Below, piece by piece: positions 20,542 to 51,039 of a stretch of 64,000 nucleotides of DNA (within the stretch, counting starts at the first letter, position 1; every line of letters begins with the position of its first letter). The notes under the pieces were generated by a model, which did no database searches, was not told the DNA's origin, and worked only from the letters and a program-made list of their open reading frames with translations. The stretch spans positions 1-64,000 of the forward strand of contig LQGW01000011.1 in NCBI GenBank assembly GCA_002838815.1, given 5' to 3'. The stretch comes from Clostridiaceae bacterium JG1575. Lineage in GTDB: Bacteria > Bacillota > Clostridia > Clostridiales > Clostridiaceae. A program made the translations under genes and the position numbers.

Positions 20542-20542
20542 G

Positions 20543-21406
20543 ATGCTGGATCTTCAAAAAGTATATCGGCCCCGTTCCCTGGAAGAGGCCTTGCACCTGC
20601 TGTCGAATGAACCGTTGCGCCCCTTGGCGGGAGGAACGGATCTTTTGGTCGAGCTTCGGGGGCAAGTGCTCCGGGAGGTTTCGATCCTCGCGTTAACATA
20701 CATCCCGGAGCTTCAAGGCATTTATGAAGAAGGAGAGCACTTATTCATCGGCCCCATGACCACCTTTACCGAGCTCATCGAATCGCCCCTCATTCAAAAG
20801 AACCTGCCGGTTTTGGCCCAGGCGGCTCAAACCATTGCCGGCCCGCAGATTCGAAACGTGGCCACGGTGGGCGGTAACGTCGCCAACGCCGCCGTTTCCG
20901 GGGATTGTATCCCCAGTCTTTTGCTCTACGATGCCAAGGTGCGCCTGATGCGGGAAGGGTCTCAACGGACCCTGCCCTTAAAAGACTTCTTCACGGGTCC
21001 AGGAACCACCGTTCGAGGCCCAGAGGAGCTCTTGGGCGGCCTCTTGATTCCCAAGGAGCACCTGGGGGATCTTTCGGCGCATTATATTAAATATTCCGTG
21101 CGCAAATCCATGGATTTGGCGGTTCAAGGGGTGGGGCTCGCGCTGAGCCTCAAGCAAGGGCGCATTGAAAAGTTGCGCGCCGCCTTCGGGGTATGCGCTC
21201 CAACGCCGCTGAGGCTGTTATCCGATGACGCCTATCGGGGCCGCCGGCCCGACGAGGAGCTGTTTCAGGATATGCTAGCCGAGGTGGAAGGCTCCTTGAA
21301 GTTGCGCGATTCTTGGCGGGCCTCCAAGGCCTATCGTCAGCACCTGGTGCGGGTTTTGCTGCGGGAAGCATATACCGCCTGCCTCGCCCAGGCGAAAGGA
21401 GAATGA
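20543..21406 (+). CDS. Molybdenum hydroxylase, FAD-binding subunit (set 2)
   Basis: A 287-residue FAD subunit. It has RPLAGGTDLLVELRG near the N-terminus and GPQIRNVATVGGNVANAAVSGDC in the middle, the two FAD-contact segments of the CoxM/XdhB family. The ATG follows the previous stop by one base, so translation is coupled. It works with the neighbouring molybdenum and Fe-S subunits. Confidence 0.92.
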   Translation: MLDLQKVYRPRSLEEALHLLSNEPLRPLAGGTDLLVELRGQVLREVSILALTYIPELQGIYEEGEHLFIGPMTTFTELIESPLIQKNLPVLAQAAQTIAGPQIRNVATVGGNVANAAVSGDCIPSLLLYDAKVRLMREGSQRTLPLKDFFTGPGTTVRGPEELLGGLLIPKEHLGDLSAHYIKYSVRKSMDLAVQGVGLALSLKQGRIEKLRAAFGVCAPTPLRLLSDDAYRGRRPDEELFQDMLAEVEGSLKLRDSWRASKAYRQHLVRVLLREAYTACLAQAKGE

Positions 21407-21407
21407 T

Positions 21408-21890
21408 ATGAAAGAAACCATTCGCATGACGGTCAACGGGCGCGCGCGCGTTGTGGAGATTGACCCTAGGGAAACCCTTCAGGAAGTGCTTCGCCAACGC
21501 CTTCACCTCACCGGCTTAAAAATAGGCTGCGGGGTGGGCGAGTGCGGCGCATGTACGGTGATTTTGAACGGGCGCCCCGTGGATTCCTGCCTGATTTTAG
21601 GCGTCCTCGCCGATGGAGGCGAGATTACCACCGTGGAAGGGCTGGCCAAGGACGGCAAGCCCAATGCGGTTCAGCAAAGCTTTGTCGATCACGGAGCCGT
21701 GCAGTGCGGTTTTTGTACCAGCGGCCTCGTCCTTACCGCTACGGCCCTTGCCCAATCCGGCAAGAGCTATACGCGGGAAGAGATCAAAAAAGAAGTCACA
21801 GGCCACCTGTGCCGGTGCACGGGGTATGCACACGTCATTGACGCCATCTGGGACGTCTGCGGAACAAAGGAGGTGGGATCCGACGAGTAA
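21408..21890 (+). CDS. Molybdenum hydroxylase, 2Fe-2S subunit (set 2)
   Basis: A 160-residue subunit with two [2Fe-2S] centres: cysteines in GCGVGECGACTVILNGRPVD, and AVQCGFCTSGLVLTA with GHLCRCTGYAHVID. It follows the FAD subunit by one base, with GGAG just upstream. It is the last subunit of set 2; the permease gene begins after a 166-nt gap that holds a short GGGAAG/CTTCCC inverted repeat and no gene. Confidence 0.94.
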   Translation: MKETIRMTVNGRARVVEIDPRETLQEVLRQRLHLTGLKIGCGVGECGACTVILNGRPVDSCLILGVLADGGEITTVEGLAKDGKPNAVQQSFVDHGAVQCGFCTSGLVLTATALAQSGKSYTREEIKKEVTGHLCRCTGYAHVIDAIWDVCGTKEVGSDE

Positions 21891-31055: not shown

Positions 31056-32822
31056 TTGGGTTCATCCAAATACCTGCACGACATTCAAGACATCGTCATT
31101 AAATTTGCCAAGGTCATCTCCCAGGTGCTCCACGTGGACGTGGAAATTGTGGACGATGGTCTGATGCGTATTGCGGGCACCGGGATTTTTGCCAAGCGCG
31201 TCAATCACCAAGCACCGGGACAAATTTACCGGGAGGTTTTAAATGGCGGCATCCATCGCATCATCCAGTTTCCGCGGGAAGATCCCTACTGCCTGGGGTG
31301 CAACGCTAAAGAAACCTGTCTTGAGACCATGGAAATTTCAACCCCCATCCGCTACCACGACAAGAACATTGGGGTCATCGGCCTCATCTGCACGACGTTG
31401 GAGCAAAAGGATCACATCAACGCAAACTTAGCATCCCATGTGGCTTTTTTGGCGCAGATTGCGGATTTAATTTCGGCCAAAGTCACAGAGCATCTGTCCA
31501 TGGAGGAAACCACGCAGAATTTGGCCATGCTCTCACGCATCCTCGATGATGTGGAAAATGGCGTCATCGTCATCTCCAAGGAGAACCGCATTGAGTTTGT
31601 AAATCGCAAGGCCATGGTGAAGCTGCGTGCGGGGGAATCGGTGCTGGGGGAGACCCTACAGCTGAGCAGCGTATCGCCCGAGGACGATCAGAACCGGGAA
31701 TTTCGCCTGGAGCTGCACGGTCGCCAATACATGGTGGCGGGGAAGCTGATGGAATTCAATGAGACCTACCGCTCCTACGACCGGATCCTGATTTTTCGAA
31801 CCATGAAGGACATCAAGCGCAATGCCTATCGCATCACCCAGCAGTCTCGACTCATCACCAAAGAGAATCTCGTGGGGCACTCTCGGGCCATGCAAGACAT
31901 TCGCGACACCATTGAGAAGGTGGCGCCCACCTTTTCCACGGTGTTCATTCGTGGGGAATCGGGAACCGGCAAAGAGCTCATTGCCCGGGCCATTCATGCG
32001 GAATCGGATCGAAAGGCCGAGCCCTTTATCGGAATCAACTGCGCGGCCATTCCCGATACCTTGTTGGAGTCTGAGCTCTTTGGGTACGTCAAGGGAGCAT
32101 TCTCCGGCGCCTCCGGCTCTGGGCGCATCGGAAAATTTGAGCTGGCCAATAAGGGAACGCTTTTTTTGGATGAGATCGGGGACATGCCCCTCTATTTGCA
32201 AAGCAAGGTGCTGCGCATTTTGCAGGAACGAGCCTTCAGCCGCATCGGCGCCAACGACCTCATCGATTTGGACATTCGGGTCATTGCAGCCACCAATCGA
32301 AACATCGAGGATATGATCATCAAGAATCAATTCCGGCGAGATTTGTTTTACCGCATCAACGTCATTCCCATTAACGTCCCGCCCCTTCGCGAGCGCACCG
32401 ACGACATTGCACTGCTCTTTGAGATGCTTTTGGCCAAGTACAATGAAGCTTTGGGAAAAAGCGTGACCCACGTGGATTCCGATGTGTTGCCCGCCTTGCT
32501 GGCCTACGCTTGGCCCGGCAACGTCCGGGAGCTGGAGAACGTCGTGCAGTACCTCATCGCCCTGGCCGACTCCTCCAATACGATTCATCGCTACATGCTC
32601 CCTGAGGCCATGCTGCATTTGGGGGGGGAGGCTGAAGGAGACGCTCCTCAAAAAGGAGAGCCCATCCAAACGCTGTCCGAGCTGGAGCATCGCTACATCG
32701 AAAAAGTGGTGGCGCGTTACGGCACGACCACCGAAGGCAAGAAAAAGGCCGCTAAGGCCCTGGGCATCGGCATTGCCACGCTGTATCGGAAGTTGGGCGT
32801 CATTTATCAAAATGAGAACTAG
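31056..32822 (+). CDS. ygeV: Sigma-54-dependent transcriptional activator (YgeV-like)
   Basis: A 588-residue enhancer-binding protein. The N-terminal sensor (about 1-150) includes a CLGCNAKETCLE cysteine cluster, a PAS-like domain follows (about 170-260), then the AAA+ core: Walker A RGESGTGKELIARAIH, the sigma-54 contact loop GAFSGA (usual form GAFTGA), Walker B TLFLDEIGDMPL and the YAWPGNVRELENV motif. The C-terminus is a Fis-type helix-turn-helix (AKALGIGIATLYRKLGVI). The start is TTG with AAGGAGG eight bases upstream. E. coli YgeV occupies the same position beside ygeWXY. A consensus sigma-54 promoter lies 330 bp downstream, its obvious target. The two spaced Cys may sense a metal, redox state or purine. 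Confidence 0.92.
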   Translation: MGSSKYLHDIQDIVIKFAKVISQVLHVDVEIVDDGLMRIAGTGIFAKRVNHQAPGQIYREVLNGGIHRIIQFPREDPYCLGCNAKETCLETMEISTPIRYHDKNIGVIGLICTTLEQKDHINANLASHVAFLAQIADLISAKVTEHLSMEETTQNLAMLSRILDDVENGVIVISKENRIEFVNRKAMVKLRAGESVLGETLQLSSVSPEDDQNREFRLELHGRQYMVAGKLMEFNETYRSYDRILIFRTMKDIKRNAYRITQQSRLITKENLVGHSRAMQDIRDTIEKVAPTFSTVFIRGESGTGKELIARAIHAESDRKAEPFIGINCAAIPDTLLESELFGYVKGAFSGASGSGRIGKFELANKGTLFLDEIGDMPLYLQSKVLRILQERAFSRIGANDLIDLDIRVIAATNRNIEDMIIKNQFRRDLFYRINVIPINVPPLRERTDDIALLFEMLLAKYNEALGKSVTHVDSDVLPALLAYAWPGNVRELENVVQYLIALADSSNTIHRYMLPEAMLHLGGEAEGDAPQKGEPIQTLSELEHRYIEKVVARYGTTTEGKKKAAKALGIGIATLYRKLGVIYQNEN

Positions 32823-33153: not shown

Positions 33154-33169
33154 TGGCACGTTTCTTGCT
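33154..33169 (+). promoter_or_regulatory. Sigma-54 (-24/-12) promoter of the ygeX operon
   Basis: TGGCAC at 33154, a five-base spacer and TTGCT at 33165 match the sigma-54 consensus TGGCAC-N5-TTGCW at every position, with exactly ten bases between the invariant GG and GC. It lies about 100 nt before the ygeX start, with nothing coding between. Start of transcription is expected near 33180. Confidence 0.88.
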
Positions 33170-33271: not shown

Positions 33272-34486
33272 ATGAATAGAAAACTTAGGATGGTTCTCAA
33301 CGGCTTCCCCAAAGAAGAAGATCGGGGACGGTATGTGGAGATCCTCTCGCAAAAAGAGGTCCAAAGGGCTCGGCGGTTTGTTTCGAGCTTTCCCGAATAT
33401 CAGGAAACCCCTTTGGTGAACCTCGAGGGGCTCGCTTCCCGCATCGGGGTGGCGAATGTGTATGTGAAGGATGAATCCTTCCGCTTTGGGCTCAATTCCT
33501 TCAAGGCCTTGGGCGGCGCTTGGGCCATGGGGAATTTCCTGGCGGACAAGCTTCACCGAAACATTGATGAGTTGACCTTGGAGGAGCTCTTGAAGCCCGA
33601 AACCAAAGAAGCCATCGGCGATGTGACCTTCTATACGGCCACGGATGGCAATCAGGGCCGGGCAGTGGCTTGGGTGGCACAAAAGCTCGGACAAAAATCG
33701 GTGGTCTATATGCCGGAGGGCTCCAGCGCTGCGCGGCTCAACAACATTTTAGCTTGCGGCTCCGATGCGTCCATCACGCAGATGAACTACAACGACGCGG
33801 TGCGCTACGCCAATGAGATGGCCCAGAAAAACAATGGGATCATTGTGCAGGATACGGCCTGGGAGGGCTACACCGAAGTGCCGACGCACATCATGCAAGG
33901 GTACGGCATCATGGCGCTGGAGGCGTTGGAGCAAATTCGGGCTCAGAACTTGCCTGAGCCGACGCACATCTTTTTGCAGGCCGGCGTCGGTTCCATGGCC
34001 GGAGCTTGCCAGGGCTTCTTCGCATCCGTCTATCAGGATGCGTGCCCCGTCACCATCGTGGTGGAGCCTGATGAAGCCAACTGTTATTACCAATCCGCCG
34101 CGCAGCAGACCCTGGTGAATATTTCTGGGGACATGCGCACCATTATGGTGGGCTTGGCCTGTGGGGAACCCAATATCATCTCCTTTGACATTATGAAACA
34201 TTGGAGCTCGGCCTTCTTGTCCCTGCCGGATTATGTGTCCGGAGACGGCATGCGCGTTCTGGGAAACCCCCTCCCCGGTGATACGCGTATTGTCTCGGGC
34301 GAATCCGGAGCCCCCCCCACAGGAGCCCTCTACCACTTAATGACGGATCCCGAGCTTGCTTCGGTGCGAGCATCATTGGGTCTGGACGAACACGCCCGCG
34401 TGTTGCTGTTCTCCACCGAAGGAGACACGGACCCCGACCGCTATCGGGACATCGTTTGGAATGGCGCGTTCTCGCGCTTTGACTAG
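33272..34486 (+). CDS. ygeX: 2,3-Diaminopropionate ammonia-lyase
   Basis: A 404-residue PLP enzyme that cleaves 2,3-diaminopropionate to pyruvate and two ammonia. The PLP lysine lies in FGLNSFKALGG (about residue 78, close to Lys77 of the E. coli enzyme), the catalytic-acid segment is FYTATDGNQGRAVAW (about 120-134), and the glycine-rich phosphate loop is LQAGVGSMAGA. The start at 33272 follows GAGGAG. As the first gene after the sigma-54 promoter, it defines the operon: pyruvate and ammonia are the end products of the purine carbon skeleton in this scheme. Confidence 0.95.
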   Translation: MNRKLRMVLNGFPKEEDRGRYVEILSQKEVQRARRFVSSFPEYQETPLVNLEGLASRIGVANVYVKDESFRFGLNSFKALGGAWAMGNFLADKLHRNIDELTLEELLKPETKEAIGDVTFYTATDGNQGRAVAWVAQKLGQKSVVYMPEGSSAARLNNILACGSDASITQMNYNDAVRYANEMAQKNNGIIVQDTAWEGYTEVPTHIMQGYGIMALEALEQIRAQNLPEPTHIFLQAGVGSMAGACQGFFASVYQDACPVTIVVEPDEANCYYQSAAQQTLVNISGDMRTIMVGLACGEPNIISFDIMKHWSSAFLSLPDYVSGDGMRVLGNPLPGDTRIVSGESGAPPTGALYHLMTDPELASVRASLGLDEHARVLLFSTEGDTDPDRYRDIVWNGAFSRFD

Positions 34487-34562: not shown

Positions 34563-35753
34563 ATGGAACAATTTAATGGTTTGATCCAAAAGCTCGAACA
34601 GCTCGAGTGCAAAAATCTCTACAACAACGACTTCTTTCTGACGTGGGATAAGACCCAGGACGAATTGGAGGCCATCTTCACCGTGGCCGATGCGCTGCGC
34701 ACCTTACGAGAAAACAACATCTCCTCGCGGATCTTTGATTCGGGGCTGGGCATTTCCCTGTTCCGAGACAATTCCACCAGAACCCGCTTCTCCTATGCTT
34801 CGGCTTGCAACCTTTTGGGTCTTGAAGTCCAGGATTTGGACGAGGGAAAATCCCAGATCGCTCACGGCGAGACCGTGCGGGAGACCTCCAACATGATCTC
34901 TTTCATGGCGGACATCATCGGAATCCGCGACGATATGTACATCGGCAAAGGCCATACCTACATGAAAAACGTCTCCGATTATGTCAAGCAGGGCTATGAA
35001 GATCACATTCTCGAGCAGCGGCCCACCATCGTCAACCTGCAGTGCGACATCGATCACCCCACTCAGGCCATGGCCGACATGCTGCACATCATCCATGAGT
35101 TTGGCGGCGTTGAACACTTAAAAGGAAAGAAGATCGCCATGACATGGGCCTACAGCCCTTCCTACGGAAAGCCCCTTTCCGTGCCTCAAGGCATCATCGG
35201 CTTGATGACCCGCTTTGGTATGGAAGTGACTTTGGCGCATCCAGAAGGGTACGAAATCATGGAAGAGGTGGAAGCCGTCGCCCAAAAGCATGCCGAGCAA
35301 TACGGCGGCAAATTCACGAAGACCAACGATATGAAGGAAGCCTTCAAGGATGCGGATATCGTTTATCCCAAAAGCTGGGCCCCCTTTAAAGCGATGGAAG
35401 AGCGCACCGAGCTCTACGCCAAGGGCGATCAGGCCGGCATTGACGAACTCGAGCAACGGCTTCTCGCACAAAATGCAGAGCATAAAGACTGGGCCTGCAC
35501 TGAAGAGATGATGCAACTGACCAAGGACGGCAAAGCTCTTTACATGCACTGCCTGCCCGCCGACATCACCGGCGTATCCTGCAAAGCCGGAGAAGTCGAT
35601 GAATCCGTCTTCGACCGCTACCGAATTCCGCTATACAAAGAAGCGGGATTCAAGCCCTACATCATCGCCTCCATGATCTTCATGCAAAAGGTGGAGAACC
35701 CAGTGGAGACGCTGCTGCGCCTGGCCAAGGAAGGAAAAGCCCGTCTCAAATAA
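34563..35753 (+). CDS. ygeW: YgeW, knotted carbamoyltransferase of the uric acid/purine cluster
   Basis: A 396-residue member of the aspartate/ornithine carbamoyltransferase family. The carbamoyl-phosphate site is FRDNSTRTRFSYASACNLLG, followed by CDIDHPTQAMADMLHI and the second-substrate region MHCLPADITGVSC. YgeW is distinct from OTC and ATC and its substrate has not been firmly shown. Beside YgeX and carbamate kinase it probably runs backwards, phosphorolysing a ureido compound (for example N-carbamoyl-diaminopropionate) to carbamoyl phosphate. That last statement is inference. Confidence 0.92.
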   Translation: MEQFNGLIQKLEQLECKNLYNNDFFLTWDKTQDELEAIFTVADALRTLRENNISSRIFDSGLGISLFRDNSTRTRFSYASACNLLGLEVQDLDEGKSQIAHGETVRETSNMISFMADIIGIRDDMYIGKGHTYMKNVSDYVKQGYEDHILEQRPTIVNLQCDIDHPTQAMADMLHIIHEFGGVEHLKGKKIAMTWAYSPSYGKPLSVPQGIIGLMTRFGMEVTLAHPEGYEIMEEVEAVAQKHAEQYGGKFTKTNDMKEAFKDADIVYPKSWAPFKAMEERTELYAKGDQAGIDELEQRLLAQNAEHKDWACTEEMMQLTKDGKALYMHCLPADITGVSCKAGEVDESVFDRYRIPLYKEAGFKPYIIASMIFMQKVENPVETLLRLAKEGKARLK

Positions 35754-35874: not shown

Positions 35875-37095
35875 ATGAAAAAACAAGAGTTGGATTTTGC
35901 AAAGATCAAACAAGCTGCTGAAGGGTACCGCGCCGATATGACCCGGTTCCTCCGGGACCTCGTCCTAGCGCATGGTGAGTCCTGCGAAGAGAAGGACAAG
36001 GTCTATCGCATTAAAGAAGAAATGGAAAAAGTCGGCTTTGATGAGACCATCGTGGACCCCATGGGCAACATTCTAGGCTATATGGGTAAGGGCGAAACCG
36101 TCATCGCCTTTGATGCGCACATCGACTGCGTGGGCATCGGCAACATCGAGGACTGGGAATTTGATCCCTTTGAAGGCAAGGAAGACGAGGTCAACATTTG
36201 GGGGCGCGGAACCTCCGATCAGCTCGGCGGCATCGTCTCCTCCGTCTACGGCGCGAAAATCATGAAGGATCTTGGCATGCTCTCCGACGAATACAAGGTG
36301 CTCGTTACGGGAACCGTTCAAGAAGAAGACTGCGACGGCCTTTGCTGGCAGTACATCATCAACGAGGACAAGATCCGTCCGGAATTTGTCGTATCCACCG
36401 AGCCCACCAACGGCAACATCTACCGCGGACATCGCGGCCGCATGGAAATCCGCGTGGACGTTTATGGAACCGCTTGCCATGGGTCCGCGCCCGAGCGTGG
36501 CGACAACGCCATCTATAAAATGGCGGATATTTTAAGAGAGGTTCGCGACTTGAACGACAAGCTTCACTATGATGAATTCCTGGGCAAAGGAACCGTCACC
36601 ACCTCGCAGATTTTCTACACATCCCCCTCGCGCTGTGCGGTGGCCGATTCCTGCGCCATCTCCTTGGATCGCCGCCTCACCGATGGGGAAACCTATAAGA
36701 GTGCGCTCAAGGAAATCGAGGAACTGCCTTCGGTGAAAAAATACGGCGCCAAGGTCAGCATGTATAAATACGAGCGTCCGTCCTGGACGGGACTTGTGTA
36801 CCCCACGGACTGCTATTTCCCCACCTGGGTGCGCAAAGAGAGCGATCCGGAAGTCGTTGCCTTGGCCGAATCCTTCCGCGGTATGTACGGCGAACCCAAG
36901 ATCGACAAATGGACCTTCTCCACCAATGGCGTGTCCATCATGGGCCGTGAAGGCATCCCCTGCGTCGGCTTGGGCCCGGGCAAAGAAGAAGAAGCCCATG
37001 CGCCCAATGAAAAAACTTGGAAGGATGATTTGGTCAAATGCGCAGCGATCTATGCGGCGCTGCCCACCATCTACATGGACAATAAAAACGCCTAA
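35875..37095 (+). CDS. ygeY: YgeY, M20-family metal-dependent hydrolase
   Basis: A 406-residue M20 peptidase/deacylase. Di-zinc ligands are visible in [13 protein letters not shown] (HxD), [13 protein letters not shown] (bridging Asp) and [10 protein letters not shown] (Glu pair); the dimerisation-domain motif [15 protein letters not shown] and the late His in [11 protein letters not shown] complete the set. The family removes acyl or carbamoyl-like groups or splits dipeptides. Within this operon it is expected to free diaminopropionate or a ureido precursor from a ring-opened purine intermediate, but no reaction is established from sequence. Confidence 0.92.
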
Positions 37096-37143
37096 GCGGC
37101 GAGCCTCCTTTTTTAGAACTCGCCCCCCATCGATTGAACGCCA

Positions 37144-37187
37144 ATCCGCCAAGAAAACCGCGCCAAGGGCATCGTCTCTTGGCGGAT
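37144..37187 (+). other. Inverted repeat before the PLP-enzyme gene
   Basis: ATCCGCCAAGA (37144-37154) pairs with TCTTGGCGGAT (37177-37187), an 11-bp perfect stem with a 22-nt loop inside the 176-nt gap between ygeY and the next gene. No T-run follows. It is probably an RNA processing or stability element; the gap holds no gene. Confidence 0.55.
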
Positions 37188-37271
37188 CGGCTCCCCCAAA
37201 GCGCCGAAGCCTTGCCTTTTTGCAGGCGAAGCAACAGGCCGGCGCTGCCTCATCATAAGGAGAAGAACCAT

Positions 37272-38747
37272 ATGTTGGATTTAACCATCCACCAGGAGAA
37301 CCTGGAGAAAAATATTCAAAAAGCCAAAGAAAATAACATCATCATCCCCACCCTCGCTCAGATGAGAAATCCGGAGACGATCCCGGATGCGGTTCAAGAA
37401 AAGCTCGGCAATCTGGGCCTTTGGGATGTGGATCCCTTGAACCTTTTCCGCATCACGTGGAAGAACGAGCCCAAGGAAAGGGGCGGCAAGTTCGGCGGCA
37501 CGAACTACATTGAACTGCCCCGAGCCCTGACGGGAGTCGATGCGAAAATCATTTGCCTTGTGGGCAAATACTTCCCCACCGGTTGCCATAAGGTGGGTGC
37601 CTCCTTTGGGTGCTTAGTCCCCCGTTTGGTTACGGGACAGTTCGACGCCTCCTCGGAGAAGGCCGTTTGGCCCTCCACGGGAAATTATTGCCGTGGCGGC
37701 GCGTTCAACTCCAAGCTCTTGGCGGTGGACTCCATTGCCATTTTACCCGAAGGAATGTCCAAGGAGCGTTTTGATTGGTTGCGCACCATCGCAGGAGAAA
37801 TCATCGCCACCCCGGGTACCGAAAGCAACGTCAAGGAAATCTTTGACAAAGTCAATGAATTGAAGGCCACGCGCGACGACATTATGGTCTTCAACCAATT
37901 TGAGGAATTCGGCAATTACCTTTGGCACTACAATGTGACGGGACCCGCCATTGAAGATGCGTTCCGTTCCTTGGGCGAGGGCCTGAACTTCGCTGGCGTA
38001 ACCTTGACGTCTGGATCGGCGGGAACGCTTGCTTCCGGCGATTACTTAAAGACGGTCTTTGCCCACTCCAAAACCGCTGTGGGTGAGGCGCTGCAGTGCC
38101 CGACCATCCTCGACAACGGCTTTGGTGCCCATCGCTTGGAAGGCATCGGCGACAAGCACATTCCCTGGATTCACAACGTGAAGCGCTCGGACATGGCCAT
38201 CGCCATCGACGACAACGACTCCATGGCTCTTTTGCGTCTCTTCAATGAAGAAGCGGGCAAAAAGTTCCTCGTGGAAGAAGCCGGCATGAAGAAAGAGGAT
38301 GTAGAGCATCTGGCCTACATGGGCATTTCGGGCATCAGCAACATGCTGTGCGCCATTAAGTTTGCTAAATACTATGAGCTGACGGAAAAAGACGTCGTAG
38401 CCACTGTGCTCACGGACTCCGTGGCCATGTATCAATCCCGGTTGGAGGAATTGACGCAAGAAGAGGGGGAGTACGATGCCACTCGGGCCGCCGTGGACTT
38501 CTACGGACGCCTCATCGGTCAAAAAACCGACAACCTCCTGGAACTGACCTATACCGAGCGCAAGCGGGTTCATAACTTAAAGTACTATACCTGGGTGGAA
38601 CAACAGGGAAAAACCTATGAAGAAATCAATGCCCTGTGGTACGATCAGGAAGACTCTTTTGACCGAGTGGCTCGACAGGCCAAAGACATCGATGAATTGA
38701 TCCAACAATTCAATGAAAAAACAGGCCTGCTGAAGGACCTGAAATAA
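37272..38747 (+). CDS. Uncharacterised PLP-dependent enzyme (cysteine synthase/threonine dehydratase fold) of the purine operon
   Basis: A 491-residue protein of the fold-type II PLP family. The probable PLP lysine is in FPTGCHKVGASFGCLVPRLV (about residue 106), the phosphate-cup-like glycine segment is TSGSAGTLASGDYLK, and STGNYCRGGAFNS corresponds to the Asn-containing PLP ring contact. It is longer than typical beta-synthases (~310-350), with a ~100-residue C-terminal addition (YYTWVEQQGKTYEEINALWY). It is not part of the E. coli cluster but here lies between ygeY and carbamate kinase in the sigma-54 operon. Elimination or replacement on diaminopropionate or a carbamoylated or formylated relative is plausible. 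The ATG at 37272 has AAGGAG upstream; a longer N-terminus is not credible. Confidence 0.85.
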   Translation: MLDLTIHQENLEKNIQKAKENNIIIPTLAQMRNPETIPDAVQEKLGNLGLWDVDPLNLFRITWKNEPKERGGKFGGTNYIELPRALTGVDAKIICLVGKYFPTGCHKVGASFGCLVPRLVTGQFDASSEKAVWPSTGNYCRGGAFNSKLLAVDSIAILPEGMSKERFDWLRTIAGEIIATPGTESNVKEIFDKVNELKATRDDIMVFNQFEEFGNYLWHYNVTGPAIEDAFRSLGEGLNFAGVTLTSGSAGTLASGDYLKTVFAHSKTAVGEALQCPTILDNGFGAHRLEGIGDKHIPWIHNVKRSDMAIAIDDNDSMALLRLFNEEAGKKFLVEEAGMKKEDVEHLAYMGISGISNMLCAIKFAKYYELTEKDVVATVLTDSVAMYQSRLEELTQEEGEYDATRAAVDFYGRLIGQKTDNLLELTYTERKRVHNLKYYTWVEQQGKTYEEINALWYDQEDSFDRVARQAKDIDELIQQFNEKTGLLKDLK

Positions 38748-38759
38748 GGAGAACCGTTG

Positions 38760-39701
38760 ATGAAAAAACGGATTGTCATTGCCCTGGGCGGAAACGCCCT
38801 GGGCAATACCCCAGAGGAGCAGATGGAGGCCGTGCGCGTCACGGCGCTCTCCATCGTGGACCTTCTGGAAGAAGGTTATGAAATCGCCATTGCCCACGGC
38901 AATGGGCCCCAGGTGGGCATGATTCATCTTGCCTTTGAAGCCGCGCATGCGTCGGAGGCTCAAACCCCCGCCATGCCATTTCCTGAATGCGGGGCCATGA
39001 GCCAAGGTTACATCGGCTATCACCTGCAAAACGCCATCATCAATGAGATGCGCAAGCGGGACATCCATCAGGATGTGGTCACCGTGGTCACCGAGGTGCA
39101 GGTGGATCCTCAGGATCCCGCCTTTTTGGAACCGACGAAGCCCATCGGGTCTTTTTGCTCCAAGGCGGACGCAGAACAGTTGACGGCGTTGAAGGGCTAT
39201 GTCATGAAAGAGGATGCGGGCCGGGGATACCGTCGGGTGGTGCCTTCGCCAAAGCCCGTGCGGATCGTCGGAATCGGCGCCATTGAAAGTATTTTGGCGT
39301 CCGGTCATGTGGTCATTGCCGGCGGCGGTGGGGGCATTCCTGTGATCGCCGAGGGACCAACGCGGCAACTCAAGGGCGTGGCGGCCGTCATCGACAAGGA
39401 TTTTACCTCAGCGAAGCTCGCGGAAGAACTTTGCGCCGATGCGTTCTTGATTCTCACCGCAGTGGATCAAGTGGCCATTCACTTTGGCAAAAGCGACGAG
39501 AAGTGGTTGGATCATTTGACCTTGGAAGAAGCCCGCGCCTACATCAATGCGGGAGAATTCGCCAAGGGCTCCATGCTGCCCAAAGTCGAGGCCGCCATGG
39601 CTTATGCCGCATCGGGCCCGGGACGGCGCGCCCTCATTACGTCGCTCCAAAAGGCCAAGGAAGCGCTTTCGGGGCATACCGGAACCTGGATCAGCGAATA
39701 A
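38760..39701 (+). CDS. arcC: Carbamate kinase
   Basis: A 313-residue enzyme that makes ATP from carbamoyl phosphate and ADP. It opens RIVIALGGNALG, with HGNGPQVG, VVTEVQVDPQDPAF, ASGHVVIAGGGGGIP, VIDKDFTSAKLAEEL and ILTAVDQVA in family order. There is no arginine deiminase nearby; the partner making carbamoyl phosphate should be YgeW. E. coli has the same pairing (yqeA). The ATG at 38760 is preferred over TTG at 38757 on ribosome-site spacing. This is the energy-yielding step of the pathway. Confidence 0.95.
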   Translation: MKKRIVIALGGNALGNTPEEQMEAVRVTALSIVDLLEEGYEIAIAHGNGPQVGMIHLAFEAAHASEAQTPAMPFPECGAMSQGYIGYHLQNAIINEMRKRDIHQDVVTVVTEVQVDPQDPAFLEPTKPIGSFCSKADAEQLTALKGYVMKEDAGRGYRRVVPSPKPVRIVGIGAIESILASGHVVIAGGGGGIPVIAEGPTRQLKGVAAVIDKDFTSAKLAEELCADAFLILTAVDQVAIHFGKSDEKWLDHLTLEEARAYINAGEFAKGSMLPKVEAAMAYAASGPGRRALITSLQKAKEALSGHTGTWISE

Positions 39702-39734: not shown

Positions 39735-42260
39735 ATGTCCGATTTGATGAGAACGATTCCTTTTTCTGATCTTTTGGATCAGATGCTGGGAGAATATAAG
39801 CGCACAAACTCCATGTTCGGCGTGGCGTTGCAGAAGGTGTACCGCAACGGGGGTCCGCAAGTAATGACGCCCTTTGGGGTCCCGCTTGGATCGGGGACGG
39901 GCCCCGCCGCGGGGCCGCACACGCAGCTTGCTCAAAACATACTCACATCCTATCTGATGGGCGGCCGGTTCATGGAACTGAAAACCGTTCAGACCCTTTG
40001 CGGGGCCGACATGCGTTCGGCCATTGCAAAACCCTGTATTTCAGCCGCCGATGAAGGATACAACGTGGAATGGTCCACGGAGCTCACGGTGGAAGAAGCA
40101 CGGGATGAATACATTAAAGCGTGGTTTTTGTGCCATACGGCTCAAAAGCTTTTGAAGATCTCCCCCGAACGGGACTTTTCCTTCAATATGAGCGTGGGGT
40201 ATTCTTTGGAAGGCATCACCTCCCGGCGCATTGATGATTTTCTCAATGCCTTGACGGACGCCTCCCAAGAGAAAACCTTCCTTGAGTGTCAAGAGGAACT
40301 TTTGACTCGGTTGGAGCATCTGCCCGGGTTGACCCGCGAGGAAGTGTTGGGGATTTCCCCAAGAATTTGTGACACCCTCGCACTGTCCACCATGCATGGA
40401 TGCCCCAAGGGCGAAATTCAGGCCATCGTGGAACACCTGTTAATCCATAAGCACCTCAACGTCTTTTTAAAATGCAACCCCACCCTTTTAGGGTATGAAA
40501 CGGCCCGAGGGCTTTTGGATCAGCTGGGGTTTGACTACTTGGATTTTGATGAGCGGCATTTCCAGGCCGATCTGAAGTTTGAGGAGGCCGTGGAGATGCT
40601 GGAGGGGCTTTTGGCAACGGCCCATAAAGAAGGCGTGACCTTTGGGGTCAAGCTCACCAACACCTTCCCGGTGAACATCACAAAAGGCGAGCTGCCTGGG
40701 GAGCAAATGTATTCTTCGGGTCGCGCCCTGCTGCCGTTATCGGTGCATGTCGCCAAAAAGCTCTCCGCCGTCTTTGGGGATCGATTGCCCATGGCGTATT
40801 CCGGCGGCGCCGATGCGCTGAACATCCAAGGATTCTTGGCGGCGGGCATCTTGCCGGTGACGGTGTGCACGACACTGCTCAAACCCGGGGGCTATGAGCG
40901 CTTGGCTCAGGTGGCAAAGGCCGCCGAGGGGGCAGCTCCTTTGAGGTACCAAGGACCCAATGCCAAGAAAATTGCTGAATTAGCCGAAGCGGTGCTTTTG
41001 GACCCTCGCAACCAAAAAGAGTTTCGGGAACCGGTGGCGAGCCGTAAAAACGATACGCCGCTGCCGCTGTTTGACTGCTTTCAAGCGCCCTGCCAAGAGG
41101 GAGGCTGCCCCATTGAACAAAAAATCCCTGCCTATCTTGAGGCGGTGAGTGAGGGGGCGTACGAGCGGGCCATGGAAATCATCGCCACGGACAACGCGTT
41201 GCCCTCCATTCTCGGGGAAATCTGCTACCATCCCTGCACCGCCAAATGCACTCGCCAAGATGTGGATCAAAGCCTCGACATTCGAAAGATGAAGCATCTG
41301 GCCACGCAAAAGGCGCAGGAATCCTACCTCAAGACCCTATCGGCCCCAGCACCGCAAGGGCCCAAGGTTCTCGTGGTGGGTGCAGGCGTTCAAGGGCTCT
41401 CCTTGGCGTACTATCTCTCCCGCGCGGGCTTTCAGGTCACGGTGGCGGAGAAAAAGGACAAGCCGTTTGGTCTCTTGAACGGCATTATGGCCAAAACGGG
41501 ACTGAGCGAGCGGGCCATGGAGCTGGATCTAGCACTCATCGAGGCCAGCGGCGCAAAGATTATTTGCAACGTGGACCAAGAGCATCTCTTGGCGCTCTCC
41601 AAAGACGCCAAGATTCGGATTTCCACCACGGGAAAACCGGAAGGGCTCGAAGCAGTCCGTCTGACCCGCAAGGATCGCAAGACCAAGCTGCAGGCGGTCT
41701 ATGCCATGGCGGCGGCTAAGGAGCTCGCCTATGAGCTCATTGCCGAGGAGGGGGGCAAGCCCGTAAGCGAGGCCTCGGTGCGCTCTACGCCAAGCGCCAA
41801 AGGGATTTATGCCCGGCGCGGCTTGCTGGAGCTTCGCTCAAAGGGGCCGGAGGAGGCCCGGCGGTGCCTCTCCTGCGATGCCATCTGCGAGGTCTGCAAG
41901 GAGGTTTGTCCCAATCGGGCCAACGTCGCCATTGCGTTGGCGGGCTTTGACAACCCCCACCAGATTCTGCATTTGGATTACAGCTGCAATGAATGCGGCA
42001 ACTGCACTACTTTTTGTCCGCACAGCGGCAGTCCCTACCTCGACAAGGTGACCTTGTTTGGCACCGAGGGGGATCTTCGGGAGTCGGCCAACGTCGGATT
42101 CTGCTTTTTCGGCGCCGAGCGCGTTTTGCTGCGGGACGAGGCGGGCGAACTTAAGGAAATGGATCTTGGCGATCTTCCCGAAGGGCCGCTTTACGTCCTC
42201 ATTCGAGCCGTCGCCACAAACCACCGCCACTTGATTGTGGATTTTGGAGGTACCTTATGA
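39735..42260 (+). CDS. ygfK: YgfK-like iron-sulphur flavoprotein (putative selenate reductase subunit family), shortened
   Basis: An 841-residue redox protein. Residues ~1-410 resemble the dihydroorotate dehydrogenase-like FMN barrel (GTGPAAGPHTQLAQN, STMHGCPKGEIQ, LPMAYSGGADALNI). A Cys-rich segment follows (CFQAPCQEGGCPI, ICYHPCTAKCTRQD), then an FAD motif VLVVGAGVQGLSLAYYLSRAGF (~545-566) and C-terminal clusters CLSCDAICEVCKEVCPNR and CNECGNCTTFCPHSG. E. coli YgfK is about 1030 residues; here the second nucleotide-binding Rossmann region (with its own glycine motif) is absent, the sequence passing from the FAD motif straight to the C-terminal clusters. It may therefore not use NAD(P)H directly. 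Its role in purine reduction is inferred from cluster position. It overlaps ssnA by 4 nt. Confidence 0.88.
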   Translation: MSDLMRTIPFSDLLDQMLGEYKRTNSMFGVALQKVYRNGGPQVMTPFGVPLGSGTGPAAGPHTQLAQNILTSYLMGGRFMELKTVQTLCGADMRSAIAKPCISAADEGYNVEWSTELTVEEARDEYIKAWFLCHTAQKLLKISPERDFSFNMSVGYSLEGITSRRIDDFLNALTDASQEKTFLECQEELLTRLEHLPGLTREEVLGISPRICDTLALSTMHGCPKGEIQAIVEHLLIHKHLNVFLKCNPTLLGYETARGLLDQLGFDYLDFDERHFQADLKFEEAVEMLEGLLATAHKEGVTFGVKLTNTFPVNITKGELPGEQMYSSGRALLPLSVHVAKKLSAVFGDRLPMAYSGGADALNIQGFLAAGILPVTVCTTLLKPGGYERLAQVAKAAEGAAPLRYQGPNAKKIAELAEAVLLDPRNQKEFREPVASRKNDTPLPLFDCFQAPCQEGGCPIEQKIPAYLEAVSEGAYERAMEIIATDNALPSILGEICYHPCTAKCTRQDVDQSLDIRKMKHLATQKAQESYLKTLSAPAPQGPKVLVVGAGVQGLSLAYYLSRAGFQVTVAEKKDKPFGLLNGIMAKTGLSERAMELDLALIEASGAKIICNVDQEHLLALSKDAKIRISTTGKPEGLEAVRLTRKDRKTKLQAVYAMAAAKELAYELIAEEGGKPVSEASVRSTPSAKGIYARRGLLELRSKGPEEARRCLSCDAICEVCKEVCPNRANVAIALAGFDNPHQILHLDYSCNECGNCTTFCPHSGSPYLDKVTLFGTEGDLRESANVGFCFFGAERVLLRDEAGELKEMDLGDLPEGPLYVLIRAVATNHRHLIVDFGGTL

Positions 42261-43579
42261 TCTTAGGCAATGGACGCGTCTTCACCAACGACGACAACGG
42301 ACGCGTCTTCGCAAACGGCGCCCTCTTAATTGACGGCGATACGATTCAAGAAGTGGGAGACTTCGTGGACCTTTGTCGAAAGCATCCGGACGAGGAAGTC
42401 ATCGACGTGGGCGGCCGGCTCATCATGCCGGGCCTGATCAACGCCCATAGTCACATTTACTCGGCCTTTGCCCGCGGCTTTGCTCCGAAGAACCCCACAA
42501 GGAATTTTCTGGAGATTTTAGAGAATCTTTGGTGGCTTTTGGATAAGGAATTGACGGTGGAGGATACCAAATACTCGGCGTACGCCACCTTCTCGGAATC
42601 CATTGCCCAAGGCGTCACCACGGTCATTGACCACCATGCCAGCCCTCATCACATCGAAGGATCGCTCTTTGCCATTGCCCAGGCCGCAAAGGATTTGGGC
42701 ATCCGGACGAGCCTTTGCTATGAAACCTCCGATCGAGACGGGGCCCTCATTGCCCAGCAAGGCATGGAAGAAAATGCGGCATTCATCCGCTGGGCCCAAC
42801 AAGAGCCGGGGGATATGGTATCGGGTCTCTTTGGGCTGCATGCCGCCTTCACCCTCTCGGACGAAACCCTCAGGGAATGCTCCCGCTTGGCTCGGGAGTT
42901 AAACGCTGGGTTCCACGTTCACGTGGCCGAAGGTGTTGACGACGAGCGCTTGAGTTTGGAGCGCTATGGACTGCCGGTGGTGCATCGACTGGAACGCTTT
43001 GGCATCCTTGGAGAAAAAACCTTGGCCATCCACTGCGTTCACGCCAACGATGAAGAATTAGACCTCTTGCGGCAAACGAATACCTGCGTCGTGCACAACC
43101 CAGAATCCAACATGGGCAATGCGGTGGGGACCTCGCCGGTGGTCAAGATGCTGGAGAAGGGCCTCATGGTGGGTCTTGGTACGGATGCCTACACCAGCGA
43201 TCTTTTTGAATCCATGAAGGTGGCGAAAATCCTGCAGTCCCACGCCTTGGGCGATCCCACCGTGGGCTTTTCCCAGGCGCTGACCTTAGCCATGAAAAAC
43301 AATCCGATCATCGCCTCCCGACACTTTAAAAAACCGTTGGGCCGACTGATGCGTGGCGCTTATGCGGATGTGATCGTCTTGGATTACGATCCGCCGACGC
43401 CTTTTAATGAAGCCACGGCCGGCGGGCACTTGCTCTTTGGCCTCTCCGGATATCAAGTCCGTGACACCATGATCAATGGGCGGTTTGTGATGAAGGACCG
43501 CATCCTGCTCCAAAAAGACACCGCCCTTTTGATGGCTGAGTGTCGTAAAAAGGCAAAGGCCCTTTGGTCCCGACTGTAA
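42257..43579 (+). CDS. ssnA: SsnA, amidohydrolase of the purine cluster
   Basis: A 440-residue metal-dependent amidohydrolase. Ligands are in PGLINAHSHIYSAFARGF (HxH), the mid His in LNAGFHVHVAEGVDD, LAIHCVHANDEE and the Asp of VGLGTDAYTSD. It is close to cytosine/guanine deaminase-like enzymes but forms the separate SsnA family, always seen with YgfK and XdhD. It overlaps the ygfK stop (ATGA), implying matched amounts. A ring-opening or deaminating step on a reduced purine is likely; the reaction is not established from sequence. Confidence 0.93.
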   Translation: MILGNGRVFTNDDNGRVFANGALLIDGDTIQEVGDFVDLCRKHPDEEVIDVGGRLIMPGLINAHSHIYSAFARGFAPKNPTRNFLEILENLWWLLDKELTVEDTKYSAYATFSESIAQGVTTVIDHHASPHHIEGSLFAIAQAAKDLGIRTSLCYETSDRDGALIAQQGMEENAAFIRWAQQEPGDMVSGLFGLHAAFTLSDETLRECSRLARELNAGFHVHVAEGVDDERLSLERYGLPVVHRLERFGILGEKTLAIHCVHANDEELDLLRQTNTCVVHNPESNMGNAVGTSPVVKMLEKGLMVGLGTDAYTSDLFESMKVAKILQSHALGDPTVGFSQALTLAMKNNPIIASRHFKKPLGRLMRGAYADVIVLDYDPPTPFNEATAGGHLLFGLSGYQVRDTMINGRFVMKDRILLQKDTALLMAECRKKAKALWSRL

Positions 43580-43636: not shown

Positions 43637-45025
43637 ATGGAAAAAAAGAATCAATCCAATGGAACTGCTAATCAACACAGCAAATCGCTGTTTCGTTTTG
43701 ATGGCAAGCCGGATCTGAGCGCTGCAATGCCTTTGGGTATTCAACACGTTCTGGCCATGATCATCGGGAACGTGACGCCGGCCATCATCGTGGCCAATAC
43801 CTTGAAACTCTCCCCGAAGGATGCAACCTTGCTCATCCAGTACGGTCTTTTGGTGTCCGCAATCGCCACCCTTTTGCAAATTTACGGCGTTTGGAAGCTG
43901 GGCTCGCGCCTGCCCGTGATGATGGGCGTCTCCTTCTCCTATGTCCCGGTGCTGGTTTCCATCGCCACCTCCTACGGCAATGTGGGTGCTATTTTAGGCG
44001 CTCAGCTTGTGGGCTCCGTCGCCGCCTTTTTAGTGGGGCTATTCATTAAGCCCATGCGTAAGCTCTTTCCACCCATCGTGGCCGGAACCGTCGTGTTGAC
44101 CATCGGGTTGTCCTTGTACGGCATCGGAATCAACTACATCGCCGGTGGAACCCCAGGTCTTCCCGGATACGGCTCGGCTCAAAATTGGTTCCTCGGCATC
44201 TTGACCCTCTTGGTGGTTCTTGCCTGCAGCAGCTTTGGTAAGGGCATCGTCAAGCTCGGCGCAATTCTCATCGGCATTCTCGTGGGCTATGTGGTGGCTC
44301 TTTTTATGAACGCTGTGAATTTTGCCCCCTTGATGAGCGCTGAGTGGGTGCTGATCCCAAGACCGCTCTACTTTGGCATGGAGTTCCACGGCACCGCCAT
44401 TTTCTCCATGGTCTTGATGTATATCGTCAATTCAATTCAGGCGGTGGGGGATTTATCATCCACCACCATCGGTGGTATGGACCGCGAAGTCACCGACGAT
44501 GAGCTCTTCGGCGGCATCACGGGCTATGGCGTCACCGCCGCCATCGGGTCGCTCCTAGGCGGTCTGCCGGTGGCCACGTATTCCCAGAACGTCGGCATCG
44601 TCGGTCAGACGAAGGTCGTCGCTCGTAAAGTGTTTGCCATCGCCGCATTCTTTGTTTTGGCCGCTTCCCTGGTGCCTAAATTTGGCGCGCTGATGACCAC
44701 CATTCCGCGTCCCGTCATCGGCGGCGCCACCGTCGGGGTTTTCGGCATGATTACCATGAGTGGCATCAAGCTCATCACGCAGCAACCACTGACGGCACGC
44801 AACATGTCCATCGTGGGCATGGCGGTGGCGTTGGGCATGGGGATTTCCACTTCGCCGGCCGCATTGGCTCAGGCGCCCCAATGGTTTATGCTGGTCTTCG
44901 GCAAATCTCCCGTGGTGATCGCCACCTTAGCCGCGTTGGTGCTCAATCTCATCATTCCGGATAAGACTTTAGAGCAAGAACAAAAAGAACGCGAAGAAAT
45001 GGATCATAGTTCACAAACGGCATAA
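43637..45025 (+). CDS. NCS2-family xanthine/uracil-type permease
   Basis: A 462-residue membrane transporter of the nucleobase:cation symporter-2 family. It shows AMPLGIQHVLAMIIGNVTPAIIV, the signature TYSQNVGIVGQTKVVARKVF, PRPVIGGATVGVFGMI and TMSGIKLI, with ~12-14 hydrophobic segments and a charged C-terminal tail. The Gln-Asn-x-Gly motif fits xanthine/urate members (XanQ, PbuX, UacT) better than uracil carriers, and the position after ssnA matches the permease that closes the E. coli cluster. Substrate (urate or xanthine) is inferred. The operon appears to end here at a terminator. Confidence 0.92.
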   Translation: MEKKNQSNGTANQHSKSLFRFDGKPDLSAAMPLGIQHVLAMIIGNVTPAIIVANTLKLSPKDATLLIQYGLLVSAIATLLQIYGVWKLGSRLPVMMGVSFSYVPVLVSIATSYGNVGAILGAQLVGSVAAFLVGLFIKPMRKLFPPIVAGTVVLTIGLSLYGIGINYIAGGTPGLPGYGSAQNWFLGILTLLVVLACSSFGKGIVKLGAILIGILVGYVVALFMNAVNFAPLMSAEWVLIPRPLYFGMEFHGTAIFSMVLMYIVNSIQAVGDLSSTTIGGMDREVTDDELFGGITGYGVTAAIGSLLGGLPVATYSQNVGIVGQTKVVARKVFAIAAFFVLAASLVPKFGALMTTIPRPVIGGATVGVFGMITMSGIKLITQQPLTARNMSIVGMAVALGMGISTSPAALAQAPQWFMLVFGKSPVVIATLAALVLNLIIPDKTLEQEQKEREEMDHSSQTA

Positions 45026-49608: not shown

Positions 49609-51039
49609 ATGGATTCAATAAAAAAAACAACGTTGGAGGTCGTAGAGAGGGATCCCAGTCATCAGACCTTAGTCCGCGGCGGCCGTCTCGTCACTGAGGA
49701 AGGCATCGTCTTTGGCGATTTGCTTTTGGGCGAGGGACTCATCCTTGCCCTAGGGCCGGATTTGTCGCAAGAGGCGCAAGGAGCCGAGATTATTGAGGCG
49801 AAGGGGTCCTTTGTGATCCCCGGAGCCATTGATGTGCACACGCATATGGAATTGCAACAATCCCCGGAGCATCGCTCCTGCGATGACTTTTTCCAAGGCA
49901 GCGTCGCGGCAGCTTTGGGGGGGACCACCACCCTCATCGATCACATCGGCTTTGGACCCGCTGGATGTCCCTTGCACTACGCCATTGACCGGTATCGGGA
50001 AAAGGGAAAAAAGGCCGCGGTGGATTATGCCTTTCACGGGGTGCTTCAGCACGTCAACGAGTCCATCCTCAACGAGCTGAGGGAGATCATTCAAACGGAA
50101 GGCATTCCAAGCTTCAAAGCCTATTCAACCTATGCGTACCCGTTGTCGGACCACGATCTATTCCAGGCGCTGCGCGTTATGAAGGAAGCCAAGGGACTTC
50201 TCACCATGCACTGCGAGAACGATGCGGTGACGAATCTTTTGAAAAAAGAAGCCTTGGCGCGAGGCAATACAGAGCCCATCTGGCAGGCGAGAACACGGCC
50301 GGCAGCCTGTGAAAAGGAGAGCATCAGTCGACTCATCGATTTGTCGGCGCTCTCTGGGGGAGCGCCCATCTATATCGTTCACACTTCGACCCAAGAAGGA
50401 GTAGCAGCCATCCAGGCCGGACGGGCCCGGGGAATCCCTGTGGCCATGGAAACTTGCCCCCAGTATCTTTTGCTCCAGGAAGGGGCGTACACGGAGCATG
50501 GCCCCCTCGAGGGGCTTAAGTACCTCATGGCGCCACCGCTTCGAAGCCCAGCGGATCAAGAAGCTCTTTGGGAGAGCCTGGCGGATGGAACCTGCGATAC
50601 GGTGGCGACGGACCATTGTCCGTTCCCCTTGGAAGAAAAAAAGGTGGGAGAGAAAAACTTTTCGTTGGCCCCTGGCGGCTGCGCTGGGGTCCAGGAGCGC
50701 CTGCCCCTGATCTATACCCACGGGGTTCTCCCGGGACGAATCTCCCTTGAGCGCATGGTGGCCCTTTTGTGCACCAACCCGGCGAAAATAATGGGGCTTT
50801 ACCCACAAAAGGGAACCCTAGCCGTGGGGTCCGATGCGGATCTTGTAGTATTGGGGCCCGGTTCCAATCGCCCGATTCGAGCCAAGGAACAGGCCACTAC
50901 CTGTGATTATTCCATTTATGAAGGGTGGGGCAACCGCTTGCGGATCCATCGGGTGATCTCCCGGGGCGAGACCATCGTCAAAGAAGGAGTGTTTTTGGGC
51001 GAGCGCGGCCGCGGTCGGTTCTTGAAGCGCTGGCTTTAA
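49609..51039 (+). CDS. hyuA: Hydantoinase/dihydropyrimidinase-type ring hydrolase
   Basis: A 476-residue cyclic amidohydrolase. It has the HxH pair in PGAIDVHTHMEL, the carbamylated-lysine site GIPSFKAYSTYAYP, metal His in LLTMHCENDA and YIVHTSTQEG, and the late Asp in TVATDHCPF, a full di-metal site. It hydrolyses five- or six-membered ureide rings; E. coli hyuA sits in the same cluster. Here it should open the imidazolone or hydantoin ring of a purine breakdown intermediate. It is the last gene of the importer operon and ends at a clear terminator. Confidence 0.93.
   Translation: MDSIKKTTLEVVERDPSHQTLVRGGRLVTEEGIVFGDLLLGEGLILALGPDLSQEAQGAEIIEAKGSFVIPGAIDVHTHMELQQSPEHRSCDDFFQGSVAAALGGTTTLIDHIGFGPAGCPLHYAIDRYREKGKKAAVDYAFHGVLQHVNESILNELREIIQTEGIPSFKAYSTYAYPLSDHDLFQALRVMKEAKGLLTMHCENDAVTNLLKKEALARGNTEPIWQARTRPAACEKESISRLIDLSALSGGAPIYIVHTSTQEGVAAIQAGRARGIPVAMETCPQYLLLQEGAYTEHGPLEGLKYLMAPPLRSPADQEALWESLADGTCDTVATDHCPFPLEEKKVGEKNFSLAPGGCAGVQERLPLIYTHGVLPGRISLERMVALLCTNPAKIMGLYPQKGTLAVGSDADLVVLGPGSNRPIRAKEQATTCDYSIYEGWGNRLRIHRVISRGETIVKEGVFLGERGRGRFLKRWL

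Follow-up and report, generated by a model that had tools for sequence, protein, structure and literature searches.

An uncharacterised fold-type II PLP enzyme linked to the reductive urate pathway of Clostridia

The anaerobic breakdown of urate by gut bacteria, a process relevant to gout, was worked out only in 2025. In the published E. coli cluster YgeX is the sole PALP protein given, and E. coli YgeX alone completes the pathway in vitro (PMC12507026). Why, then, should an operon of this pathway that carries ygeX encode a second PLP enzyme? The question is raised by the window (the whole 64,000-nucleotide stretch of DNA analysed here), for which the initial annotation suggested that the second enzyme adds a chemical step. 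The PLP enzyme is real and linked to the urate pathway, and is uncharacterised as far as the open-access literature shows, a search of which found no paper on the gene. More can be learned from a partner protein, termed C1, and from its alternation with ygeX.

The urate operon and the PLP gene

NCBIfam and Pfam profiles give the gene order ygeX-ygeW-ygeY-PLP gene-arcC-ygfK-ssnA-NCS2 permease, with a sigma-54 activator gene ahead (Table 1). With a D-hydantoinase and a xanthine dehydrogenase-type enzyme also encoded there, the window accounts for most of the steps in the reductive pathway as published. The placing of a 491-residue frame between ygeY and carbamate kinase by the initial annotation was borne out, both neighbours scoring above their NCBIfam cut-offs. 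Its statement that the gene is missing from the E. coli cluster also held: besides the composition of the published cluster, blastn with 11-base words gave no DNA match to the PLP gene in E. coli (20,395 records, 5,426 genomes).

Table 1. Features of the window (residue numbers for the protein motif)
Feature	Position	Strand	Evidence or remark
Three-subunit xanthine dehydrogenase-type molybdenum hydroxylase	18235..21890	+	Pfam; NF043082 XdhA 1116 bits, cut-off 780
Sigma-54-dependent activator, probable operon regulator	31056..32822	+	profile matches; homologue heads urate operons of L091, L094, L095
Sigma-54 type promoter (-24/-12), TGGCACGTTTCTTGCT	33154..33169	+	102 bp 5' of ygeX start
ygeX, diaminopropionate ammonia-lyase	33272..34486	+	TIGR03528 564 bits, cut-off 532
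ygeW, knotted carbamoyltransferase	34563..35753	+	TIGR03316 778 bits, cut-off 500
ygeY, M20 hydrolase	35875..37095	+	NF009555 and TIGR03526 above cut-off
PLP enzyme gene	37272..38747	+	491 aa; ATG 37272, stop 38747
TDS motif of PLP enzyme	residues 381-383		role after CysK/CBS analogy
arcC, carbamate kinase	38757..39701	+	TIGR00746 375 bits, cut-off 358
ygfK-like reductase, 841 aa	39735..42260	+	TIGR03315 897 bits, cut-off 835
ssnA aminohydrolase	42257..43579	+	NF005540 and TIGR03314 above cut-off
Urate/xanthine-type permease (NCS2)	43637..45025	+	TIGR00801 above cut-off
D-hydantoinase (HyuA candidate)	49609..51039	+	TIGR02033 477 bits, cut-off 393

For Clostridiales, an earlier prediction placed a dpaL/ygeW/ygfK/ssnA/ygeY regulon, the function of which was then unknown, under the sigma-54 regulator DioR (PMC6615313). 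The only exact match to TGGCACNNNNNTTGCT within the window lies at 33154-33169; by base counting an estimated ~0.03 exact matches are expected, and with two mismatches allowed the frequency is not above chance. Given this element and a ribosome-binding site before 33272, the start of ygeX is most likely the ATG at 33272 and not 33185. Further downstream, the YgfK-like protein is shorter than the YgfK of related urate loci (841 vs. ~1,000 aa), and in its nucleotide-binding domain the Pfam match stops after the first ~40 residues, so it may use a different electron donor. A search for Rfam families, made for riboswitch clues, returned none in window positions 16000-54000.

The PLP gene is preceded immediately by an AAGGAG ribosome-binding site. 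Since M1 is invariant in the 41 sequences compared, and alignments with relatives of 66-75% identity begin at residue 1, an alternative 537-aa ORF with a TTG start was rejected as the PLP gene. Between ygeY and the PLP gene there is an imperfect inverted repeat of 13-14 bp (37140-37153 / 37178-37191), a possible processing or attenuation hairpin.

Family assignment of the PLP enzyme

The PLP enzyme belongs to an uncharacterised fold-type II family with a CysK/CBS-like core. On its own it scores 33.6 bits with Pfam PF00291 (PALP), just below the cut-off of 35, and the profile matches 41 of 41 relatives at E up to 0.01; membership of the PALP fold-type II group is given by this match of the relatives together with the predicted fold. 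In Foldseek the AlphaFold model (pLDDT 85.3, pTM 0.89) matches O-acetylserine sulfhydrylases (OASS) and cystathionine beta-synthase (CBS) best, with E ~1e-13 and a target TM of ~0.8. The structural alignments cover ~320 columns at 20-27% identity and leave the N- and C-terminal parts without a match. CBS is also the best PDB profile match (6c2h, E 5e-20).

The core spans approximately residues 75-391, with ~74 aa before it and ~100 aa after it. The long C-terminal extension that the initial annotation had singled out is thus real and conserved in the family, and the N-terminal part is extra as well. Within the C-terminal extension YYTWVEQQ is invariant across the 41 sequences, and W441 and Q444 are also present in rhizobial relatives at 40% identity. 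Residues invariant throughout the family, including relatives at 32-40% identity, comprise FPxGxHKV (with Lys107), PSTGN, GSxG, ExxxCxT, GxGxH, GxGDK, TD, Y387/S389, and W441/Q444; the invariance of the last pair marks the C-terminal extension as a family feature. By analogy with CysK and CBS, Lys107 in FPTGCHKV is the putative Schiff-base lysine and PSTGN (134-138) the putative substrate loop.

Named families were excluded by profile. The enzyme lies far under the cut-offs for CysK (TIGR01139, 72.2 vs. 350.95 bits), CysM (24.2 vs. 394.2 bits), CBS (TIGR01137, 60.6 vs. 510.25 bits), and SbnA of 2,3-diaminopropionate (DAP) biosynthesis (TIGR03945, 31.2 vs. 349.95 bits). The threonine synthase profiles TIGR00260 and PRK08197 did not match it at E up to 0.001, nor did the YgeX profiles TIGR03528 and TIGR01747. 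The possibility raised at the outset, that it might prove to be an ordinary cysteine or threonine synthase, is therefore not realised. The 2-amino-4-oxopentanoate thiolase OrtB (NF040741) gave no match either; the true OrtB of this genome is encoded elsewhere (L109, 807 bits), where ornithine fermentation genes for OrtB and 2,4-diaminopentanoate dehydrogenase occur. The genome also encodes a second CysK-like protein (L108), and among the PALP proteins found in it none is a threonine synthase by NCBIfam.

Distribution and the partner C1

Genome contigs yielded at least 586 confirmed relatives; the top 80 are 66-75% identical and come from Clostridia, Treponema, and a few others. Judged by isolate names, many of the Treponema carriers are probably from termite guts. 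Co-occurrence was assessed in 293 genomes, an even sample of one class taken as Clostridia, the class of G156 and the window genome. The PLP gene is present in five and ygeW in 15, with all five inside the 15 (hypergeometric P = 1.7e-7). This phylogenetic profile ties a second fold-type II PLP enzyme statistically to the urate pathway, as the initial annotation had supposed. The ten ygeW-positive genomes without the PLP gene all have ygeX, compared with one of the five with it (Fisher P = 0.0037). C1 is present in each of the four PLP-positive genomes that lack ygeX; the fifth has all three genes. In G156, ygeX lies within the urate cluster and the PLP-C1 pair ~70 kb away.

Urate genes are also retained in the wider set of carriers. 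Where the PLP locus itself did not show ygeW, the gene was found in the genome in 25 of 32 cases, and ygeY was matched in 32 of 38 genomes tested, a few of these matches being partial or just 33-38% identical. Five of the six genomes without a ygeY match also lack ygeW. The carriers with neither gene (L038, L042, L047, L053, and L065), which may be incomplete assemblies, are the exceptions to the placing of the PLP gene in urate operons and in ygeW- and ygeY-positive genomes. Retention of ygeW and ygeY in nearly all carriers argues that the PLP enzyme probably acts at or after DAP, at the end of the pathway, and makes a bypass of YgeY unlikely. Action on ureido (N-carbamoyl) forms is likewise disfavoured, since YgeY is kept almost everywhere.

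C1 is a ThrC-like fold-type II PLP protein of ~414 aa encoded directly downstream of the PLP gene in 57 of the 73 loci that extend far enough on that side; ygeX lies within 700 bp downstream in six of the 73. Genome-wide, 43 of 50 PLP-positive genomes have C1. Five of the remaining seven have ygeX, L016 has ygeX cut by the contig end, and L065 has neither. Half of the 50 lack ygeX, and C1 is present in 24 of these 25. The alternation in this set is marginal (Fisher P = 0.049), and related genomes among the 50 are not independent. The window genome, in which C1 was not found, has ygeX. In a tree of 58 sequences, C1-less members that bear ygeX occur at two spots among C1 carriers, one the window and the other an Oscillospiraceae clade with L022; the simplest reading would be that C1 was lost twice, in lineages with ygeX. 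The exchange is clear in the locus L091, which runs activator-C1-ygeY-ygeW-PLP enzyme: the window operon with C1 in place of ygeX.

C1 passes the PRK08197 and TIGR00260 cut-offs, and ThrC proteins are its best solved relatives. It differs from ThrC in having NPYL for NPYR and VGD for VGN, changes conserved in 63 C1 sequences. These positions, which we take to bind phosphate of O-phosphohomoserine in ThrC, are altered, and C1 would then be unlikely to use O-phosphohomoserine. C1 at 57 loci (e.g. L057:11495-12739 and 56 others) is named threonine synthase by profiles while differing at conserved ThrC motifs, and is probably misannotated in many gut genomes. A second recurrent neighbour is a ~221-aa protein, apparently a regulator and with no NCBIfam match, which stands beside the PLP enzyme (L045:5622-6287 and 16 other loci) and also occurs in urate clusters without it.

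Proposed reaction and comparison with known enzymes

A broken YgeX was considered as the cause for a second enzyme and rejected: no loss of catalytic residues was seen, the window YgeX keeping NSFK, TDGN, and QDTAWEGY, motifs common to all YgeX proteins compared. No alignment column divides YgeX proteins with and without the PLP enzyme, bar one near the N-terminus. Of the initial interpretation, the tie of a second PLP enzyme to the pathway stands; a chemical step added to that of YgeX is one option among several. The distribution suggests that the enzyme belongs to such a two-gene module, able to stand in for YgeX and maybe forming an alternative end of the pathway and not a new middle step.

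The CysK/OASS/CBS fold is one of enzymes of beta-elimination and beta-replacement. Beta-elimination or beta-replacement at the level of DAP would be the most economical reading and fits the CysK/CBS-like core. In its favour, the relative in the deltaproteobacterial locus L047 is encoded directly after an M20 amidohydrolase, and one on a Bosea plasmid has a ygeX-like frame, an M20 hydrolase, and a Rid protein nearby. Against it, E. coli lacks the gene and the window ygeX looks intact, so that the function is not obviously needed. On balance the best reading, held tentatively at somewhat below even probability, is that the PLP enzyme acts on DAP, as a C-N lyase or by beta-replacement, and that it does so together with C1, either instead of YgeX or alongside it. 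From the gene and its operon, the fold class, the co-occurrence, and the alternation of C1 with YgeX we infer the following substrate, reaction, products, and cooperation with C1. DAP released by YgeY would be bound to the PLP cofactor as an external aldimine, as in the fold relatives, and the active-site lysine would take the alpha proton. The 3-amino group would depart as ammonia to leave enzyme-bound 2-aminoacrylate, which could be released (pyruvate and NH3) or caught by a nucleophile in beta-replacement. In most lineages the PLP enzyme and C1 would act together as a pair able to replace YgeX, and in the window genome YgeX would take the place of C1. The broader proposal that CysK-fold and ThrC-like PLP enzymes form a second pathway ending, converting DAP in place of YgeX in many Oscillospiraceae, other Clostridia, and gut Treponema, is possible but doubtful.

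Other assignments account for parts of these data. The CysK/CBS-like core would also suit beta-replacement for biosynthesis, in which sulfide or water takes the place of the 3-amino group of DAP, so that urate carbon ends up in cysteine or serine, and bulk elimination is left to YgeX or C1. Retention of the PLP gene beside ygeX in two C1-less lineages fits such a function unlike that of YgeX; however, the near-constant presence of C1 in genomes without YgeX is left unexplained, the genome has its other CysK-like protein, and sulfur genes have no link in the operon, which makes this unlikely. The tight pairing with C1 would be accounted for by a racemase interconverting D- and L-DAP, so that C1 as an enantiospecific lyase could use the D-product expected from the D-hydantoinase route. 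The Asp before GN in the TDGN of YgeX is indeed absent from C1 and the PLP enzyme (STGN in both). Yet E. coli YgeX takes both DAP isomers (PMC12507026), a racemase would be superfluous beside an intact ygeX, and the nearest solved relatives of the PLP enzyme are not racemases, so this is rather improbable. Least likely is a lyase that eliminates the ureido group directly from 2-amino-3-ureidopropionate (albizziin), bypassing YgeY and YgeX. Enzymes of the CysK group typically act on beta-substituted alanines, of which albizziin is one, but the bypass should permit loss of ygeY, which nearly every ygeW-positive carrier retains.

Relatives outside urate clusters bear on a further reading, that the protein is a catabolic lyase whose substrate is a different amino acid, imported or deacylated, and that it often lies near urate genes as gut bacteria use both. 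The PLP enzyme and C1 occur away from urate genes in G156 and several Treponema, which, like the five carriers without ygeW and ygeY and the plasmid relatives at 40% identity, counts against a strict urate role. Stand-alone pairs in Treponema and L019 favour the lyase for another amino acid. Near such pairs the Rfam search gave just an unrelated azaaromatic riboswitch and a tRNA. Loci of the L038 type, in which a TRAP transporter and a GntR regulator accompany a 3,5-diaminohexanoate dehydrogenase-like gene, and the rhizobial plasmid relatives at 40% identity point the same way. Confinement to ygeW-positive genomes in the even Clostridia sample, operon membership behind a sigma-54 element in the window, and the C1/ygeX alternation all speak against it, and it too seems improbable. 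In L038:1366-7190 the relative follows the transporter, the regulator, and an L-erythro-3,5-diaminohexanoate dehydrogenase match above cut-off; ygeW and ygeY are both absent from that genome. The 40% relatives lie on Rhizobium and Bosea plasmids. M20 hydrolases stand beside relatives in L047 and on both plasmids, and TRAP transporters near those in L038 and Bosea. On the Bosea plasmid (L084:15001-24236) the relative is near a Rid protein, a gamma-glutamyltransferase, an M20 hydrolase, a TauE/SafE exporter, and a ygeX-like gene that runs over two frames and is apparently frame-broken; this cluster possibly serves plant amino acid degradation. The catabolic neighbours of these relatives (M20 hydrolases, TRAP transporters, Rid protein) suggest that the family at large is made up of catabolic lyases whose amino acid substrates are freed by M20 hydrolases, with the urate branch as one of them.

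For the preferred reading of a DAP-level enzyme, the consequences concern annotation as well as chemistry. Surveys requiring YgeX would rate many Oscillospiraceae, Oscillibacter, and Treponema clusters incomplete; for the activity missing from ygeX-less clusters, the strongest candidate is the PLP enzyme with C1. What emerges are two families of undescribed PLP enzymes for which the candidate substrates are few, and their specificity offers an approach to the stereochemistry and the order of ureido cleavage in the urate pathway.

Compared with known systems, the PLP enzyme shares with CysK the fold-type II core, the GN substrate loop, and a similar C-terminal PLP-ring motif; it differs in its two terminal extensions and in the PTGCHKV round the presumed lysine. 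Its LTDSVAMY resembles LPDSVRNY, which we take to be the CBS motif, but no CBS regulatory domain was found in it. With YgeX it shares the operon, the PLP superfamily, and a presumed common substrate, whereas it belongs to a separate subfamily and carries STGN where YgeX has the TDGN loop.
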